A DNA stretch of 64,000 nucleotides from a virus, in IMG/VR virus record IMGVR_UViG_3300042261_000588, positions 1 through 64,000 of that record. One strand, 5' to 3'. The notes under the pieces are model-generated. The model was not told where the DNA came from. It saw only the letters and a program-made list of their open reading frames with translations, and did no database searches. Positions 36,517-48,435 of the stretch are shown here, piece by piece (the stretch's first letter is position 1; every line of letters starts with the position of its first letter). Made by a program: the position numbers and the translations under genes.

Positions 36517-39360
36517 GTGGCTTTTTTGAGTGTTGATTCAACAAATTCTTTGGTCGTATATGACGCTTACAATCATAGAGCCGTCATTGGCGATCTTGGT
36601 GGATACTGGGATGCCGATAAAAAGGCATGGGTAATCGTATTCACAATTGCCAATCTAGAAGGACTCTTGGATGCCATTCCTGATATTTCTGTGTCTGAAG
36701 ACCTGTCGAATAAGGTCAAGGAGCAGATGGAGAAGGAGGCTAAGCTCGAAAAACTAAGGGCTATGTCGAAGCAGGATGTTCCAGTGAGTCTTCGCATTCC
36801 TGGTATGAAGTTGCCATTGTATAACTATCAGAGGCTTGGGGTTATGTATGCGGCAACGAATCGGGTTGGACTGCTTCTAGCGGACGAAATGGGACTTGGC
36901 AAAGCCGAAGTTGTTGATAATCAAGTATTTACAACTACAGGACGCCGCAGGATAGGGAGCTTGAAGATTGGAGATAATGTAATAGGGAAAGACGGAAAAC
37001 CCCATTGTGTTGTTGGCGTTTATCCACAGGGGATGCAAGATATTTATCGGGTTTGGTTCAATGATGGGTTTTACCTAGATGTTGGACCAGAACACCTGTG
37101 GGAAGTAAGGTCAAACAACCAACACAACAAAAAAAGAACATCGAAGGGTGTTGTGTTATCGATGAGTCAACTTCTTGACAAGAATGGAGTTTCAAATAGG
37201 GTTGGCGAGGGACACAACAGAGATAAGGTATATGAGTTCAAGACATATTACAAGAAGTCTAACGGCGACAACAGTTGGGTAATACCAATGGTTGATGTTA
37301 TTGATTTTGAAAAAAAAGAAGTTTTGATGGACTCGTATCTTCTGGGAGTGTGGCTTGGAGATGGGCATATCTGTAAGAACGGGCATGTAATATTGAGAAT
37401 GCTAAAGACGGACTTGGAAGATATGCCTATTGGCGGGAAGACCCTATCCGGTAAGCGACCACATGTGCAATCTGTTTCGTTTGACATGTATAAAAAAGAG
37501 TTGGTCAATCTTGGTTTAAACGGAAAGAGAGCTTGGGAAAAGTTCATACCTGTCGACTATAAATACAATTCTGAAGAAGTAAGACTTGGAATCATTCAGG
37601 GGTTGATGGATACAAATGGTCATGCGGCAGATGGTGAGACCGAGTTTTCGACCAGTTCCAAGCAGTTGTGTGACGATGTGGTTGAGATTGTTCAAACGCT
37701 TGGCGGTATTGCAAGAGTGAGGACGAAAATACCGACATATTGGCATAAGGGAGTAAAGAAGACGGGAAGGACATCGTATAGGGTCAACATCAAGTTGCCT
37801 TCTGGTGTTGTTCCGTTTCGTCTATCTAGAAAGATTGCGGACTATGACATGTGCCGTAAGTATGCCCCTGAGCGATATATTTGTAATATTGAAAAACTCG
37901 CAGAAAAGAAAGAAACGGTTTGCATCTCAGTCGATGCGCCTGATAATCTTTATGTCACGGAACATTGTATTGTCACTCATAATACCCTCCAGGCTATCGG
38001 AACATCTCTATTCCTGAAGGCTTATGCTGGAGCCACAAAGGCACTCATTGTCACTCCGGCTTCACTCAAATTCAACTGGCCGTTGGAGATAGAAAAGTTT
38101 ACGGATGAGAAGTATGTAGTAATTGATGGAACACCCGAGGAGCGTGTCGCTCAATGGCTTCGTGAGGATGTGTTCTTTTACGTGGTCAACTTCGAGTTGT
38201 TGTTGGAGGACTTGTTCGGAGGTAGAAAGTTTAGAGAAAAGAAGGGTGAGTCAGACGAGGATAAGGAGAAAAGGCTTGCTAGGCATGAGAAGATTTCTGT
38301 TAAGGCTAAACAGAGGAGAGGAATACTAGACAGAGTTCGTAATAGAGTATGGGATATTATTGCAGTTGATGAGGCGCAGGCGATCCGACATCATTCTTCG
38401 AGCAGGACTAGGAATTTGAAGGAGTTGAAGGCCAAGTGTAGGATGGCTCTTACGGGAACTCCGATGGATGGAAGGCTTGAGGAGTTGCACAGTCTGATGC
38501 AGTTCGTGGCTCCTGGATTGCTCATGTCAAAGACTAGGTTCTTTCAACGGTATGTCGAGACCGACTTCTGGGGCAGGGTTACGGGATACAAGTGCATCGG
38601 CGAAGTATCACAGAAGATTCAGCCGTTCTTTCTTAGAAGGCTCAAGAAAGATGTGTTGAAGGATTTGCCTGACAAGGTTTATCACAACCGTATTGTTTCG
38701 ATGGATGCCAGTGAGCATAAAATTTATAAGTCTATTGCAGAGCAGGGGCATGAGGCGACAGAAGACGCTCTTGCCGTTGTTGCATTGATCAGGTGTAAAC
38801 AGTTCTGCAATTTGCCTAAGATGGTTGATCCTTCATGTACGACGAGTTCCAAGCTGGATGAATTCAAAGATGTAGTCGACGAGGTTGTGCTTCAAAATGG
38901 ACACAAGGCATTGATATTCAGCCAGTATAAGGAGATGCTGGATGTCATTGTGTCGGAATTGGAAAAGATGGGTATCAAGTATCTCAGAATTGACGGGGAT
39001 ACGCCTACAATACAGCGTGCTTCTATGCAGAAGCAGTTTAATGAGGATAAAGCTATTGACGTGATGGTTGGAACTGAGGCAATGTCTACTGGATTGAACT
39101 TCCAGTCTGCGGATTATGTCATCAACTATGATGATAACTGGTCTCCATCTATTATGGCTCAGCGTGAAGACAGAGCGCATCGGAATGGGCAGAGGAATGT
39201 GGTGACTATCGTGAACTTTATATGCCAAGACACAATCGAAGAGAGAATTCGTGGAGTAATCTATGCAAAGAGTCGAATGTCATCACAAGTTCTTGGTGAC
39301 GAGACTGAAGAACATATCCTGAAAAGATTGGGTCCTAAAGATTTGGCCAAACTATTGTGA
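36517..39360 (+). CDS. SNF2-family DNA helicase/translocase with intein (precursor 947 aa)
   Basis: GTG 36517 follows AGGAGG. After removal of residues 130-489 (intein) the mature protein is 587 aa. Motifs are Walker A DEMGLGK-T (split by the intein), DEAQ at 618-621, LTGTPMDGRLEE, and the C-lobe GLNFQSADYVINYD followed by AQREDRAHRNGQ. These define an SNF2-type dsDNA translocase; phage members act in replication restart or recombination. N-terminal 100 residues are a short regulatory region. First gene of the replication block, with a promoter directly upstream. Confidence 0.92.
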   Translation: MAFLSVDSTNSLVVYDAYNHRAVIGDLGGYWDADKKAWVIVFTIANLEGLLDAIPDISVSEDLSNKVKEQMEKEAKLEKLRAMSKQDVPVSLRIPGMKLPLYNYQRLGVMYAATNRVGLLLADEMGLGKAEVVDNQVFTTTGRRRIGSLKIGDNVIGKDGKPHCVVGVYPQGMQDIYRVWFNDGFYLDVGPEHLWEVRSNNQHNKKRTSKGVVLSMSQLLDKNGVSNRVGEGHNRDKVYEFKTYYKKSNGDNSWVIPMVDVIDFEKKEVLMDSYLLGVWLGDGHICKNGHVILRMLKTDLEDMPIGGKTLSGKRPHVQSVSFDMYKKELVNLGLNGKRAWEKFIPVDYKYNSEEVRLGIIQGLMDTNGHAADGETEFSTSSKQLCDDVVEIVQTLGGIARVRTKIPTYWHKGVKKTGRTSYRVNIKLPSGVVPFRLSRKIADYDMCRKYAPERYICNIEKLAEKKETVCISVDAPDNLYVTEHCIVTHNTLQAIGTSLFLKAYAGATKALIVTPASLKFNWPLEIEKFTDEKYVVIDGTPEERVAQWLREDVFFYVVNFELLLEDLFGGRKFREKKGESDEDKEKRLARHEKISVKAKQRRGILDRVRNRVWDIIAVDEAQAIRHHSSSRTRNLKELKAKCRMALTGTPMDGRLEELHSLMQFVAPGLLMSKTRFFQRYVETDFWGRVTGYKCIGEVSQKIQPFFLRRLKKDVLKDLPDKVYHNRIVSMDASEHKIYKSIAEQGHEATEDALAVVALIRCKQFCNLPKMVDPSCTTSSKLDEFKDVVDEVVLQNGHKALIFSQYKEMLDVIVSELEKMGIKYLRIDGDTPTIQRASMQKQFNEDKAIDVMVGTEAMSTGLNFQSADYVINYDDNWSPSIMAQREDRAHRNGQRNVVTIVNFICQDTIEERIRGVIYAKSRMSSQVLGDETEEHILKRLGPKDLAKLL
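36904..37983 (+). mobile_element. Probable Class 3 intein with LAGLIDADG endonuclease (360 aa)
   Basis: Inserted between Lys and Thr of the Walker A motif (GLGK-TLQAIG). First residue Ala, not Cys or Ser, and +1 residue Thr. The W-C-T triad expected of Class 3 inteins is present: Trp66 (GPEHLWEV, block B), Cys340 (TVCISV, block F) and Thr358 (VTHN, block G), with terminal HN. Homing endonuclease motifs are YLLGVWLGDG (block C) and IIQGLMDTNG (block E); the usual acidic residue in block E is Asn, so the nuclease may be impaired. In Class 3 inteins, the block F Cys starts splicing. Confidence 0.9.
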
Positions 39361-43462: not shown

Positions 43463-43512
43463 AGGCCGTATTGGCTAATGTGTCGATATTCGACGAAAAA
43501 ACTAGGAGGCAT

Positions 43513-44433
43513 ATGAACGGGCAAATTGGGCTGTCTTCGTCTATTTCTAATTCTTCCGAGCGGGTTTCCGTTCGTGATCAAATCAAGCGGATAAAGTCTG
43601 AAATTTTCCAATCTGCGAAAGCTGTTTCAGTCTTTGTTCCTCCTCCTCCTCCTTCTGAATCGGAAAAGAAAATATCGATTCAAGAACTTTTGGCGCAGAT
43701 TAAAAAGTCGTATCTAGACGATTTGGCGGCAGGAGTTGGATTACTTCCTATCGTTGATGATTCAAATCATGGTGTCGAACTGACAAGAGACCAGATTGCC
43801 GTTGCTGTCGCATTGGATATGTCTGGCAAAAAGCCGTTGTCTATGAAAGATCGTCTTCGGTATAACACGATGCTATATGATTCGATTCGTAATCTTGTTT
43901 ATCTTCGGGCATCTCGTTATTCTGTCACATGTCCAGAGGAATCCGTTGATGATCTGGCTCAAGAGTGTATGTTTCAGATTCTTAAGAAGCTCCATGGTTT
44001 CAATCCGAAACGTGGAGCTTTTTCAACATGGTCGTGGTACGTTTGTACGGGAACGATGAATCGGAAATATCGGAATGGTCAGAAGAGTAGAAAAGCCATC
44101 GTGTCTGCTGGTCATTTCGTAGACGAAGATGGGAACAGCATGTTGGAGAATCTCCCTGAGAGCCCACTTGAAGGAGTGCAAAGTCATGAGTGTCAAGGAA
44201 TCATGGCGAATGAGATCATGGATTCAGTAAGGGAATTGGCAGGGAACTATCCTGAACAAAAACAGCTAATTTTTGAGATATTTGGCAATCCTGATTCTGA
44301 ACAGTTTGTCATGCCGAGTAATATTAACGTGTCGGAATCTGCCAAGGCCATAGGAATGAAGTATAGTCGGGCACACTCTTTTTTCAAAACGGTTATCCGT
44401 CCGTTCTTTCAGAAGCAGTTGGCGGGGTGTTGA
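43513..44433 (+). CDS. Sigma-70-family RNA polymerase sigma factor, 306 aa
   Basis: Sigma region 2 is visible at about residues 110-190: RYNTMLYDSIRNLVYLRAS, VDDLAQECMFQILKKLHGFNPKRGAF and STWSWYVCTGTMNRKYR. The C-terminal segment (NINVSESAKAIGMKYSRAHSFF) looks like a region 4 helix-turn-helix. The Pro-rich N-terminus (PPPPPSE) is a linker. AGGAGG is upstream of 43513; TTG 43471 could add 14 residues. It may direct host polymerase to the phage-specific promoter motif; not proven. Confidence 0.85.
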   Translation: MNGQIGLSSSISNSSERVSVRDQIKRIKSEIFQSAKAVSVFVPPPPPSESEKKISIQELLAQIKKSYLDDLAAGVGLLPIVDDSNHGVELTRDQIAVAVALDMSGKKPLSMKDRLRYNTMLYDSIRNLVYLRASRYSVTCPEESVDDLAQECMFQILKKLHGFNPKRGAFSTWSWYVCTGTMNRKYRNGQKSRKAIVSAGHFVDEDGNSMLENLPESPLEGVQSHECQGIMANEIMDSVRELAGNYPEQKQLIFEIFGNPDSEQFVMPSNINVSESAKAIGMKYSRAHSFFKTVIRPFFQKQLAGC

Positions 44434-44874
44434 ATGTCAAATACATTATGGGCAAAACATCATTATGCCAAATGTTTCGGGTTTTGGGTTGTATCTGAAT
44501 TGGAGTGTGTCAAGTGTGCTCTATCCGAAAGTTGTGAAAAAAGGACTAAAGCTAAAGTAGAAGAAGTTGATCGCTCTAAGGATTCGGATGTAGATACAGA
44601 GGCAGATGGGAATGTAGAATCAGAAGAGGTTCCAGTACTTTCTCCTTTAAACTATCTAATTCAAAGTCTTGCTGGTAAGTTTGATCAGGAAACAGATGAG
44701 AAGGAGAATGCTATTCTTCATAAGTTTCGTAATAATGGAAGAACAGTGATTGCTGTTGCCATAGGAGCTTATGGGAAAATCAAGATCGTTTCTGTAGTCA
44801 AGAATACGTCTAAAGTATTCGACAAATTAGAAAGCATTGATGAGGTTGAGTCAGTGCTAAAGGAGATGTTGTGA
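44434..44874 (+). CDS. Hypothetical protein with Cys cluster, 146 aa
   Basis: Starts immediately after the sigma gene stop. N-terminal ECVKCALSESCEK plus an earlier Cys could bind zinc; the middle is acidic and the C-terminus alpha/beta (TVIAVAIGAYGKIKIVSVV). Stop overlaps the next start (GTGA). A small sigma-associated or helicase-associated factor is possible by position only. Confidence 0.55.
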   Translation: MSNTLWAKHHYAKCFGFWVVSELECVKCALSESCEKRTKAKVEEVDRSKDSDVDTEADGNVESEEVPVLSPLNYLIQSLAGKFDQETDEKENAILHKFRNNGRTVIAVAIGAYGKIKIVSVVKNTSKVFDKLESIDEVESVLKEML

Positions 44875-45773
44875 GGACGATTGAATATCCTTGGTATCAC
44901 CCACCATTTTCTGAATATAATGCAGCACAGGCAACAGCGATACCATTTCTTGATAAGGATGTGAATCTTGTCATTTCTTTTGCTACGGCAGCAGGAAAGA
45001 CTGTGCTTGCGGAATGTGCGATGGCTTTTCATTTAGCGAATCGTGAAGATTGCAGGGTTGCATATGTTTGTCCGTTCAAGAGTTTGGCTTCTGAGAAACT
45101 CAAGGCGTGGACGGAAGAGCAGCAACTTGGAAAGTATGGATTGGCACTCTGGTCCAGTGATAGCAAGGATGATGGTAGGGATGGAAGACTGACCGTTTCG
45201 ACATTGGAGTCGTTTGACATGAAGACTCGGTCGAAGGCATGGAAGGACTGGATGGAAAGTTTTGATTGTGTCGTTTTTGATGAGTCGCATATTGTTGGGG
45301 ATGATGTAAGAGGTGGTGCAATGGAGGCAGCAGTGATGCGGCTAACCGATTTAAATCCCAGAGCAAGGATCGTGTTTTTGTCGGCGACGATGGGTAATTC
45401 CGGGGATTTGGCAAAATGGGTAAAGTCTCTCAATGGTAAACCTACAAAGTGTATTACGAGTTCATGGAGACCGACCAAGGTAAAAATGGAGTATCATCTG
45501 GTAGATGGTCACGATGAAAAGACAAGCAAGGCGGTAGAACTGGCAACTCAATCAGCTTCTCGTAAGACATTGGTGTTTGTTCATTCAAAGGTGACAGGAA
45601 GCAAGATTGTAAAGAGTTTACGGTCAACGGGAGTACGTGCTGTATTTCATAATGCTTCTTTGTCTTCTGCGAAGAGGAGAAAGATTGAGGAAGCATTCAA
45701 TAGTCCAACATCTGGACTCAATGTTTGTGTGAGTACATCGACATTGGGTGCTGGGGTCAATATGGGAGGGTGA
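44871..45773 (+). CDS. Ski2/Hel308-like helicase, N-terminal half (split gene), 300 aa
   Basis: Contains Walker A ATAAGKT (38-44), DESH box II (137-140), SAT motif III (VFLSATMG), and motif V CVSTSTLGAGVN (286-297). The frame then ends GG-stop at 45771-45773. Motif VI and the winged-helix/HhH part are encoded at 46989-48002, 1.2 kb downstream in the same frame. Superfamily 2 helicases need motif VI, so this half alone should not unwind DNA. Activity would require assembly with the second half. Start GTG 44871 overlaps the previous stop. Confidence 0.85.
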   Translation: MRTIEYPWYHPPFSEYNAAQATAIPFLDKDVNLVISFATAAGKTVLAECAMAFHLANREDCRVAYVCPFKSLASEKLKAWTEEQQLGKYGLALWSSDSKDDGRDGRLTVSTLESFDMKTRSKAWKDWMESFDCVVFDESHIVGDDVRGGAMEAAVMRLTDLNPRARIVFLSATMGNSGDLAKWVKSLNGKPTKCITSSWRPTKVKMEYHLVDGHDEKTSKAVELATQSASRKTLVFVHSKVTGSKIVKSLRSTGVRAVFHNASLSSAKRRKIEEAFNSPTSGLNVCVSTSTLGAGVNMGG

Positions 45774-45774
45774 T

Positions 45775-46368
45775 GTGGAAAAGACAATTCAACTTGAAGC
45801 ATTGAAGGTAGAGTGTTTGGCGTGTCGTCGTTGCAAAATCGGCGGGCAGATGATTTCTGGAAAGTTTCTTGGAAATGTCTTTTCCAACATGAATTGTACT
45901 GCGGAGTACATGGTTGTTGGTCAGAATCCCGGATCGGAAGAGACTGAGAAGTGTGAGCCATTTGTCGGAATTTCCGGGAAGATGTTTGACCAGTTAGTTG
46001 AAGAGGTCATGGAGATGAAACGATCCATGTTCTACATCTCCAATACGGTTCGTTGCTATACTCCCGGAAATCGAAAACCAACAATGGAAGAGGTGTCAAA
46101 CTGTCGGTATTTCATGGACTTGGAGATTCAAGCACTTCGACCAAAGGTGATTATCACGCTTGGTGGTCCGGCATTTGAGCAGGTTACGGGCATTCATGGC
46201 ATTATGAAGCATCATGGAAAGCCTGAATTCTCTCCTCGGTACAAGGTTCCTGTATTTCCATTACTGCACCCGAGTCCGATAAATTTGAATGACCCGGCGA
46301 AGATGGAGTTATTTGTGGCTGACCTTGTATTGCTGGAGGAGTTTATCAAGAATGGATGTGTTCTGTGA
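45775..46368 (+). CDS. Family 4-type uracil-DNA glycosylase, 197 aa
   Basis: Removes uracil from DNA. GTG 45775 follows GGGAGGG at the end of the helicase half. Motifs: CLACRRC N-terminal cysteines, VGQNPGSEE (family GExPG-E), PFVGISGKMFD, NTVRCYTPGNRKPTMEE and a second Cys, VIITLGGPA, and HPSPI. The four-Cys Fe-S pattern supports the thermophile/family-4 class. In phages it protects uracil-prone DNA or aids base excision. It lies inside the helicase insertion. Confidence 0.85.
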   Translation: MEKTIQLEALKVECLACRRCKIGGQMISGKFLGNVFSNMNCTAEYMVVGQNPGSEETEKCEPFVGISGKMFDQLVEEVMEMKRSMFYISNTVRCYTPGNRKPTMEEVSNCRYFMDLEIQALRPKVIITLGGPAFEQVTGIHGIMKHHGKPEFSPRYKVPVFPLLHPSPINLNDPAKMELFVADLVLLEEFIKNGCVL

Positions 46369-46634
46369 GACGCGTGGACCCATGGTCAATCTACAGAGAT
46401 GTTGATGAGTTCCTGACGGACATGAGAGAAGGAACATTGAAGGAGGGGTTCACATTATCACAGTTAGCGTGGGATGGATTGATGGAAAAGGTGAATGCTG
46501 ACTCTGTGTTCGCTGACGAGATTGTTGCCAATGGGGTCTTATTACTCATGGCTACGCATTCAAAGTCCGAGATTGACGGGTTGATGTCATTAGCAGAGGT
46601 GTGTTACGGGCAGGAAGGACAGGTGGATGCTTGA
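46356..46634 (+). CDS. Hypothetical protein, 92 aa (in the insertion)
   Basis: Overlaps the UDG gene by 13 nt; GTG 46365 is an alternative start. Helical and acidic (WSIYRDVDEFLTDMREG; LLLMATHSKSEIDGLM). Ends YGQEGQVDA overlapping the next micro-ORF. Family unknown. Confidence 0.55.
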   Translation: MCSVRRVDPWSIYRDVDEFLTDMREGTLKEGFTLSQLAWDGLMEKVNADSVFADEIVANGVLLLMATHSKSEIDGLMSLAEVCYGQEGQVDA

Positions 46635-46743
46635 AAATGACTTTGCCGAACATTGTTCATTGGTGGAGATTTACCCGAATCAGATTATGGATGAAATCGT
46701 TGGGATATTGGAAACAGTATTGGGGGATTGTGTGGAAGTCTAG
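46627..46743 (+). CDS. Micro-ORF, 38 aa (in the insertion)
   Basis: ATG 46627 overlaps the previous stop by 8 nt and runs to TAG 46741-46743. Product MLENDFAEHCSLVEIYPNQ followed by an acidic helix. Tight overlap suggests translation. Function unknown. Confidence 0.5.
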   Translation: MLENDFAEHCSLVEIYPNQIMDEIVGILETVLGDCVEV

Positions 46744-46765
46744 GTTACACCAGAAAGCGTGTATA

Positions 46766-46996
46766 ATGGGTGCAAAAGATGTTGTGCCGGTGAAGGTTGG
46801 TCTTGGGCTTATTTCTCCTTATGCTGGACTCGTTGAGGTTCGAGAGTTTGAGGATTTGCAACAAAGATGGAAAGAATGGGAAAGGGAGAGATTGTTTATC
46901 GGTGCGGCACAAGACCACCCGGATGGAATCTTAGCCGAGAGTGGTGAGGACATGGTTTGCATGACGAGTGAGGAGTTTGAACACTGGTATGGCTGA
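46766..46996 (+). CDS. Hypothetical protein, 76 aa (in the insertion)
   Basis: ATG 46766 is in GTGTATAATGGG with no strong Shine-Dalgarno. An upstream in-frame extension from 46601 has Trp/Arg-rich sequence and overlaps two small ORFs, so it is rejected. Product has a segment LQQRWKEWERERLFIGAAQ and ends EEFEHWYG. It overlaps the second helicase half by 8 nt. Confidence 0.5.
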   Translation: MGAKDVVPVKVGLGLISPYAGLVEVREFEDLQQRWKEWERERLFIGAAQDHPDGILAESGEDMVCMTSEEFEHWYG

Positions 46997-48002
46997 CGTT
47001 GTTATAGTGGTAGGCACGAAGCGGGGGAAGGAGAATGTATCCCCGATAGAGATCAAGCAGATGGTGGGTCGGGCTGGTCGCAAGCATGGTTGTGAGACAG
47101 CCTTAGCTCATGTTCTGGTCGAGGATGATCGTATAGACGAGGTTCAGGAGGGGTTGGATCATGGCACTAATATGGATGTTCATTCCTCGTTCAGTGATAC
47201 TGACAGATTGATCTTTCATTTGATGCCGGAAATAGCGGCGGAACGTGTTGTAAACGTAGATACGGCTACAAAGTGGTATTCTAGGAGTCTAGCGTCTTTT
47301 CAGGGGCGGAATGTTGACTTCCACAAGGTCTTTGACAAGATGTTTGAGATGGGGGCGATAAAGCTTGAACCATCGGATAATGTTCGTCCAACGAGGGCTG
47401 GAAAGATTGCGGCTGATCTCTATTTTCATCCCGGAGACGTACAGGCGTGGTTGAATAACTTTACTCGGATTTTCGAGATGGGTTTGGAAAATGACAATGC
47501 GGCGATGGCATGGGCATTGGGAACTAGGATTCATACGAAGTGTCATGGAGACTTTGCAGATCATCGATTTGTAATCAATGAGTGCAAGAGTGCTCTTCCG
47601 TTAGGGTTGGAAATGGAGCCGGGAACAGTGACTCAAGTAGTATTGTGGTGGTGTTCGATGGGTGGTCCTCCTGTTGGTAAAATGAAAAATCAGATGCTCG
47701 AATTGAGGGAAGACATTGGAAGGATCAAGAGGGCATTGGCAAGACTGGATAAAGAAGTCGCTGGTTGGAATAGAATCGGATTTTTTGATGATGTCGAGTT
47801 GATGGTTCGTAAGGGGATCAATACAACACTGCTAGATTTATGTAAACTTCCAGGAATTACGAAAGGAAGAGCGGATTTCTTGTATAATGTAGGTGTGAGG
47901 GACATTCATGGGATTGCAGAGGCTCTTCCTAATATCGAGGATGATATTGACGAGCCATTCAAGGCGGCATTGAAGGAGATTGTTAGTGGTATTCGGAAGT
48001 AG
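46989..48002 (+). CDS. Ski2/Hel308-like helicase, C-terminal half (split gene), 337 aa
   Basis: Begins MADVVIVVGTKRGKE and carries motif VI QMVGRAGR (24-31), then winged-helix/ratchet helices and a helix-hairpin-helix near the end (LLDLCKLPGITKGRADFLYN). This continues the helicase interrupted at 45773. ATG 46989 overlaps the previous stop; GAGGAG is upstream at a long distance. An in-frame GTG at 46968 is an alternative start. Without the N-half it lacks Walker A. Confidence 0.82.
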   Translation: MADVVIVVGTKRGKENVSPIEIKQMVGRAGRKHGCETALAHVLVEDDRIDEVQEGLDHGTNMDVHSSFSDTDRLIFHLMPEIAAERVVNVDTATKWYSRSLASFQGRNVDFHKVFDKMFEMGAIKLEPSDNVRPTRAGKIAADLYFHPGDVQAWLNNFTRIFEMGLENDNAAMAWALGTRIHTKCHGDFADHRFVINECKSALPLGLEMEPGTVTQVVLWWCSMGGPPVGKMKNQMLELREDIGRIKRALARLDKEVAGWNRIGFFDDVELMVRKGINTTLLDLCKLPGITKGRADFLYNVGVRDIHGIAEALPNIEDDIDEPFKAALKEIVSGIRK

Positions 48003-48435
48003 AGCCGTTGAAGCGTGTATCCGGGATTGGTCTTCAGGGACGGTTGATGAAGGCAATATCCGCAACTTGCTCAAATGCAGGGACGTGAACGTTACTGGGA
48101 TGGAAGAGTACTTGAGTAAATCTCATCCGTCGGAAGTACGTTGGGCTGCTGCACGGGTATTGATGGAAAAGGGACAGGCGAAGGAAGTCGTTGCTGCGGC
48201 GATGCTTTCACAGGATCGGGAATCTATACTGTCCTTGTTGAGTCTACTGGGAAAGAACAAAGTCGGTATCGATGCTTTGGAAAGTCTTATTTCTTCCGAG
48301 GATACAATGGTTAGGGATGCGGCGATAGAAATGTTTAGAAGGGCTGGCAAGGTGGATGTCATCTTCCCATTGATTTTTGATAGTGATGATGGAGTCGTGA
48401 AAAGGATTAAACGGTACATCAATGAAGCGGGATAA
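47986..48435 (+). CDS. HEAT-repeat-like protein, 149 aa
   Basis: GTG 47986 has AAGGAG 7 nt upstream and overlaps the helicase end. Sequence pattern SEVRWAAARVLMEKG, DTMVRDAAIEMFRRAG and VVKRIKRYINEAG resembles HEAT/PBS repeats, a protein-protein scaffold. Possibly helps assemble the split helicase or another replication complex. Function unknown. Confidence 0.6.
   Translation: MVFGSRAVEACIRDWSSGTVDEGNIRNLLKCRDVNVTGMEEYLSKSHPSEVRWAAARVLMEKGQAKEVVAAAMLSQDRESILSLLSLLGKNKVGIDALESLISSEDTMVRDAAIEMFRRAGKVDVIFPLIFDSDDGVVKRIKRYINEAG

Follow-up and report, generated by a model that had tools for sequence, protein, structure and literature searches.

A Hel308-like viral helicase encoded in two parts on either side of a uracil-DNA glycosylase gene

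The window, the 64,000-nucleotide stretch of viral DNA analysed here, covers positions 1 to 64,000 of the 143.9-kb virus record IMGVR_UViG_3300042261_000588. It encodes a Hel308/Ski2-like superfamily 2 (SF2) helicase as two separate open reading frames (ORFs), helN and helC, with a gene for a uracil-DNA glycosylase (UDG) between them. An earlier reading made from the letters alone (the sequence-only reading) had placed the split between helicase motifs V and VI, with the UDG in the gap, and both the ORFs and the profile searches confirm this arrangement. Small genes do follow the UDG, as that reading had stated, but there are two of them (S3 and S4) and not three. The locus is organized as follows:

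44434..44874, plus strand: small upstream gene, 146 amino acids, with Cys in its N-terminus
44871..45773, plus strand: helN, Hel308-like helicase N-half, 300 amino acids, GTG start, RecA1 and RecA2 up to motif V
45762..45764, plus strand: final homologous codon of helN, encoding the Met of GVNM, with the conserved break immediately behind it and ahead of the position of an invariant proline
45775..46368, plus strand: UDG, family-4-like, 197 amino acids, GTG start (Pfam UDG, 2e-27)
46365..46634, plus strand: S3, small gene, 89 amino acids, GTG start, overlapping the UDG stop by 4 nt
46637..46996, plus strand: S4, small gene, 119 amino acids from the ATG at 46637
46989..48002, plus strand: helC, helicase C-half, 337 amino acids, ATG start, beginning MADVVIVVG and overlapping the S4 stop by 8 nt
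47980..48435, plus strand: HEAT-repeat-like protein, 151 amino acids, overlapping the end of helC

SF2 motifs I, II, III, IV-like, V and VI are all found, spread across helN and helC. helN contains motifs I (ATAAGKT), II (DESH) and III (SATM), the stretch FVHSK and motif V (STSTLGAGVNM), after which it ends with GG and a stop codon. helC contains the end of RecA2 with motif VI (QMVGRAGR), followed by the winged helix, ratchet and helix-hairpin-helix (HhH) domains. In profile searches, helN matches DEAD (8e-18), Helicase_C (7.5e-8) and Hel308-type NCBIfam models; helC matches the C-terminal parts of those same NCBIfam models and, among structures, 2zj2 (E 1.6e-20, HhH included). Against NF040935, the Hel308 model with a curated cut-off of 1200 bits, the N-half scores 98.5, the C-half 34.9 and an intact relative 208 bits. 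All are below the cut-off, and the proteins are thus a distant phage family and not Hel308 orthologues by that standard.

Searches with both halves and the UDG recovered the order N-half, UDG, C-half in eight diverged lineages, namely: the window (also L001), L004, L090, L098, L091 (=L094), L009 (=L010), L102 and L130. In addition to these complete lineages, L115 carries an N-half and a UDG, after which the contig ends. The nearest relative of the window, L004, is ~80% identical to it, and identity falls to about 46% for the N-half and 33% for the C-half in the others. In all eight lineages the helicase motifs are intact and divided over both halves, and the single polypeptide by which a Hel308 is recognized is replaced by two ORFs. 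The N-half ends with GVN followed by M, I, V or L and 0-2 further residues in seven of the eight, and with 13 further residues in L102, while the C-half starts with M/V-A/S-D in every case.

The gap between the halves holds the UDG alone in L009, L090, L091 and L130, the UDG and small genes in the window, L004 and L098 (in L115 the small genes precede the UDG), and an endonuclease and the UDG in L102. Since the UDG is constant and the small genes are variable, the latter look like later arrivals. S3 is also present in L004; S4 is absent from L004 and has a 31% homologue at the equivalent place in L098. The eight lineages furthermore have in common a co-linear block of a primase-like gene, a sigma-like ORF, helN, the UDG, helC, the HEAT-repeat protein and a 239-aa protein, single members of which are undetected or cut off in some contigs. 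The HEAT-repeat protein adjoins helC in all eight, and homologues of the 146-aa upstream gene precede helN in L004, L090 and L098. This block was not found around the helicase in 16 tested intact relatives, nor in L044, a split relative described below. A DNA-level search of phage records gave no match, and in cellular genomes a scan that depends on short conserved stretches gave distant matches only (23-32%) and no close relative of the split clade. As a separate observation, the ORF just 5′ of the helicase operon (43471-44433), which is kept in most split lineages, gives the impression from its sequence of containing sigma-factor-like stretches.

The genes of the locus are tightly joined. 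In the window, the stop codon of the upstream gene overlaps the GTG start of helN by 4 nt, and a Shine-Dalgarno-like GGGAGG for the UDG is located within the 3′ end of helN. At the junction of N-half and UDG, the stop and the start overlap by 4 nt in both L009 and L130, and in L098 by 11 nt. At the other end of the gap, the 8-nt overlap seen in the window between the C-half start and the stop before it recurs in L091, L102 and L130; in L009 this overlap measures 11 nt, and in L004 a single base is common to the S3 stop and the helC ATG. A search for terminators and promoters between the halves gave fewer matches than in shuffled sequences, with one weak terminator-like site at 45702. Such tight joints suggest that translation of the two halves may be coupled.

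The eight split lineages form one clade (Shimodaira-Hasegawa-like approximate likelihood ratio test, SH-aLRT, 99-100), and the UDGs from the split loci cluster apart from other viral UDGs, with weak support (SH-aLRT 81). Between the window and L004, ratios of nonsynonymous to synonymous changes (dN/dS, Nei-Gojobori count) are 0.06 for the N-half, 0.08 for the UDG, 0.10 for the C-half and 0.35 for S3, values that are rough because synonymous sites are near saturation. Both halves are nevertheless clearly constrained by purifying selection, and a recent break is very unlikely. Given that the identical cut is kept in eight diverged lineages, the locus points to a stable two-part enzyme and not a broken gene. 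The preference of the sequence-only reading for a working split enzyme over a recent break is thereby strongly favoured; in such an enzyme the two halves would act jointly.

The uninterrupted homologues that the sequence-only reading had proposed to seek were found, and they define a single break. These intact references are the 675-aa ORF of a 595-kb uncultured phage (LR756511, L006) and ~75 viral contigs, and they place the break at GxNL/P (the slash marks the joint). In the alignment, GVNM/MADVVIVVG stands against GLNL/PARRVVILG with no residue lost or gained. At the break, each of the 16 intact relatives in the alignment has a proline (P331 in A9), and every UDG split has the start codon of its C-half in that position. 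From the C-half Met to motif VI there are 23 residues in all eight lineages, matching the P331-to-Q354 distance of the intact protein, which indicates that no residue was lost at the split.

This register does not agree with the proposal that deletion of 1227 bp restores a smooth protein. The product of such a deletion, GVN-M-ADVV, is one residue short of the intact GLNL-P-ARRVV. The two TATGG copies on which the proposal was based do lie exactly 1227 bp apart (45761 and 46988). We rejected them as an insertion scar or target-site duplication, however, because TATGG is missing at the L004 C-half start, is in the wrong register and occurs at chance frequency (five copies in 3.1 kb vs. about 3 expected); the pair is a coincidence, a mere ATG followed by G at both sites. 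Similarly, the halves share a frame in the window, but this is a matter of chance: the offset of helC relative to helN is 0, 1 or 2 depending on the lineage, and a same-frame join or translational bypass was rejected on that account.

To place the break in three dimensions, we used a predicted model of an intact relative (predicted local distance difference test, pLDDT, 87; predicted template-modelling score 0.82), which is Hel308-like (9b15 and 2p6r, template-modelling scores of 0.70-0.72 at 26% identity). The break maps to a loop of the model, residues 328-331, that leads from the helix following motif V into the next strand of RecA2; this strand, a short hairpin and the helix of motif VI are therefore all part of helC. 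When helC is predicted alone, residues 68-337 are mostly above pLDDT 73 and residues 1-67 have pLDDT 44-63; the best structural match of the model is 2zj5 (Z 15.0, root-mean-square deviation 6.1, 279 residues). The poor fold of residues 1-67 would be expected of a RecA2 remnant that needs helN to fold but, being predicted from a shallow alignment, is suggestive only. In SF2 helicases, the motif VI arginines act at the ATP bound between RecA1 and RecA2. Thus, helN would not be expected to work as a motor by itself, and since neither half has a complete ATPase, the halves would have to associate.

What opened the gene is a separate issue. The sequence-only reading had named a UDG-bearing insertion as the agent; among the genes of the gap the UDG alone is constant, and a homing endonuclease is the likelier opener in view of L044 and L102. 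L044 has its break at the identical place, and the sole occupant of its gap is a nuclease-like gene. The overlaps of this gene, 4 nt with the N-half stop and 8 nt with the C-half start, are precisely those of the UDG in L130; at the joint, the C-half of L044 is shorter by one residue. In L102, a candidate Vsr/DUF559-type endonuclease sits between the N-half and the UDG (DUF559 9e-11, above the cut-off; TIGR00632 3e-7, below it). The L044 nuclease matches more weakly (MTES_1575 4e-4, DUF559 0.015), and the two nucleases show a weak core match to each other. In L027, L072 and L076, inteins are found at AWG/C-N-LPAR, three residues upstream of the break. A homing endonuclease may accordingly be pictured as having inserted at the conserved motif V DNA and broken the gene, and in the split clade the UDG would then have taken over the gap, with the endonuclease mostly lost. 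We regard this history, an endonuclease insertion followed by the settling of a UDG, as moderately probable.

Some observations on these relatives and on mobile elements stand apart from that question. The L044 N-half (locus 1247-3834, with the nuclease-like gene in the UDG slot) bears a long zinc-ribbon-like N-terminal extension. Inteins also occur elsewhere in the same phage Hel308-like family, at motif I (L056) and motif II (L066, L087), and with inteins at three conserved motifs the family is a repeated target of mobile elements. In the window itself, the Walker A motif of a SNF2-type helicase (36517-39360) is interrupted by an in-frame LAGLIDADG intein (GLGK/AEVVDNQ...VTHN/TLQA).

Taken together, these results make it probable that the locus encodes a two-subunit Hel308/Ski2-type SF2 DNA helicase that arose from a stably fissioned gene. 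HelN and HelC would be translated from a single series of genes that overlap or lie close together, the UDG and the optional small genes being placed between the two halves, and HelC would add the missing segment to the HelN RecA2 sheet and supply motif VI in trans. We infer the assembly in trans, the helicase activity, the translational coupling and the endonuclease origin. Several points weigh against this interpretation. The C-halves diverge faster than the N-halves, and the dN/dS values have the roughness noted above. The structural argument uses monomer predictions on shallow alignments. Forcing L044 into the UDG-split clade costs 1.3 log units (approximately unbiased test, p 0.476), which is compatible with the same split in L044 or an independent one, and the endonuclease origin is based on a single-sequence relative, L044, and one split member, L102.

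It is unlikely that the halves have instead been re-used separately, with HelC serving, for instance, to bind DNA and HelN acting as a partner protein. The independent fold predicted for HelC 68-337 and the lower conservation of the C-halves would fit such a fate. Against it, Walker A, DEAH, SAT and motif V are retained in HelN and the Q..GR..R of motif VI in HelC; motif VI has no obvious use in the absence of the other half, and the spacing from the break to motif VI is frozen at 23.

The UDG scores 110.3 bits (8e-32) against TIGR00758, just below the curated cut-off of 125.3 bits, and we therefore term it family-4-like. The Fe-S cysteines C14, C17, C94 and C110 and the HPSP motif are invariant in five lineages. 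Motif A of family-4 UDGs is GEGPG; in the window and its split-clade relatives it reads GQNPG or GQSPG, and the glycosylase activity is putative. No second UDG was found in the window's genome. One could imagine, as a doubtful extension, that the UDG joins, bridges or gates assembly of the helicase halves in a three-part uracil-repair machine. If so, HelN, UDG and HelC would be synthesized in this order to serve the assembly, the motor would be complete only with the UDG present, and the position of its gene in the gap would be functional and not historical.

That the halves are rejoined, the gap being a self-splicing intron, a split intein or the site of a ribosome hop, seems highly improbable. 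The gap DNA does lie within a conserved motif, as favoured by introns and inteins, and motif V is the intein site in the three relatives mentioned above. However, the window and nine relatives (ten loci) have no Rfam group I or group II match, and the gaps of L009, L130 and L091 (558-567 nt) are nearly all UDG coding sequence that overlaps or nearly touches both halves, leaving no room for a ribozyme core. No Hint remnants are found either: in the window helN stops 2 residues past GVNM and helC has its own Met, and with HelN ending near GVNx and HelC starting with M/V-A/S-D across the clade, there are no intein halves. A hop would be at odds with the variable frame relation and lacks a conserved matched take-off and landing site. 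Finally, a recently broken, decaying helicase with both pieces as remnants, which the interruption might suggest when the gene is set against the intact ones of about 75 distant viral relatives, is extremely improbable given a break kept over large divergence, intact motifs and dN/dS of about 0.06-0.1 in both halves.

Elsewhere in the window, positions 1079-1822 and 1885-3720 contain a phage-borne transfer-messenger RNA (tag AHLQNARVSTTSG) and a tRNA-Met beside a 611-aa ORF, which by sequence impression only has the look of a TROVE/Ro60-type RNA-binding protein.

If the two-subunit interpretation is correct, the locus provides a natural two-chain SF2 motor cut within a RecA-like domain, with motif VI coming from a separate protein, and thus a ready system for studying RecA2 folding and motif VI action. 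It would also indicate that a parasitic insertion can become permanent in a replication/repair enzyme, the break being fixed in a deep viral clade. In relatives, inteins and a nuclease gene strike the same motif V, and a useful UDG is kept where the parasite may have sat. Neither a phage helicase divided within RecA2 nor a UDG lodged in a gap of this kind was encountered in the literature searched, which lacked most subscription papers.

Compared with known systems, the archaeal Hel308/Hjm proteins (PDB 2p6r, 2zj5, 2va8) have the same motifs and the same RecA1-RecA2-WH-ratchet-HhH order (WH, winged helix), and the model of the intact phage relative compares with them at template-modelling scores of 0.70-0.72 and 22-26% identity, but they are one polypeptide, whereas the viral enzyme is two, cut just after motif V. 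A 'large helicase-related protein' is split in Nanoarchaeota (NEQ 003-409 and Nst 172-239; PMC3655853). This gene is likewise in two parts; however, it is cellular and of another helicase family, its parts are unlinked judging by locus numbers, and the sites differ between the two nanoarchaea. Dassa et al. in 2009 reportedly described 'fractured genes' with split inteins and Vsr-like endonucleases. The candidate Vsr-like endonuclease of L102, and probably the nuclease of L044, would recall these in lying between gene halves, but here no intein parts flank the break.

The closest parallel is nrdA of Aeromonas phage Aeh1, split by mobE, whose halves are reported to give a functional enzyme (PMC2988022); further phage splits are those of the T4 topoisomerase by mobA and of phage 25 gene 43 (43A/B), the latter a second published precedent for function (PMC2988022). 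As in Aeh1, a phage enzyme gene is cut in a critical region, and its halves are separate genes with overlapping start and stop codons. In Aeh1, the intervening gene is a homing endonuclease and the arrangement belongs to particular phages; the window has a UDG in the break and no homing endonuclease, and a UDG is found in the gap of all eight lineages. Without an endonuclease in the gap, strict membership of the genes-in-pieces class fails for the window. By analogy, the split helicase would nevertheless work like a genes-in-pieces enzyme, the difference from the Aeh1 ribonucleotide reductase being that an SF2 helicase is cut inside one RecA domain and that the split defines a whole clade.

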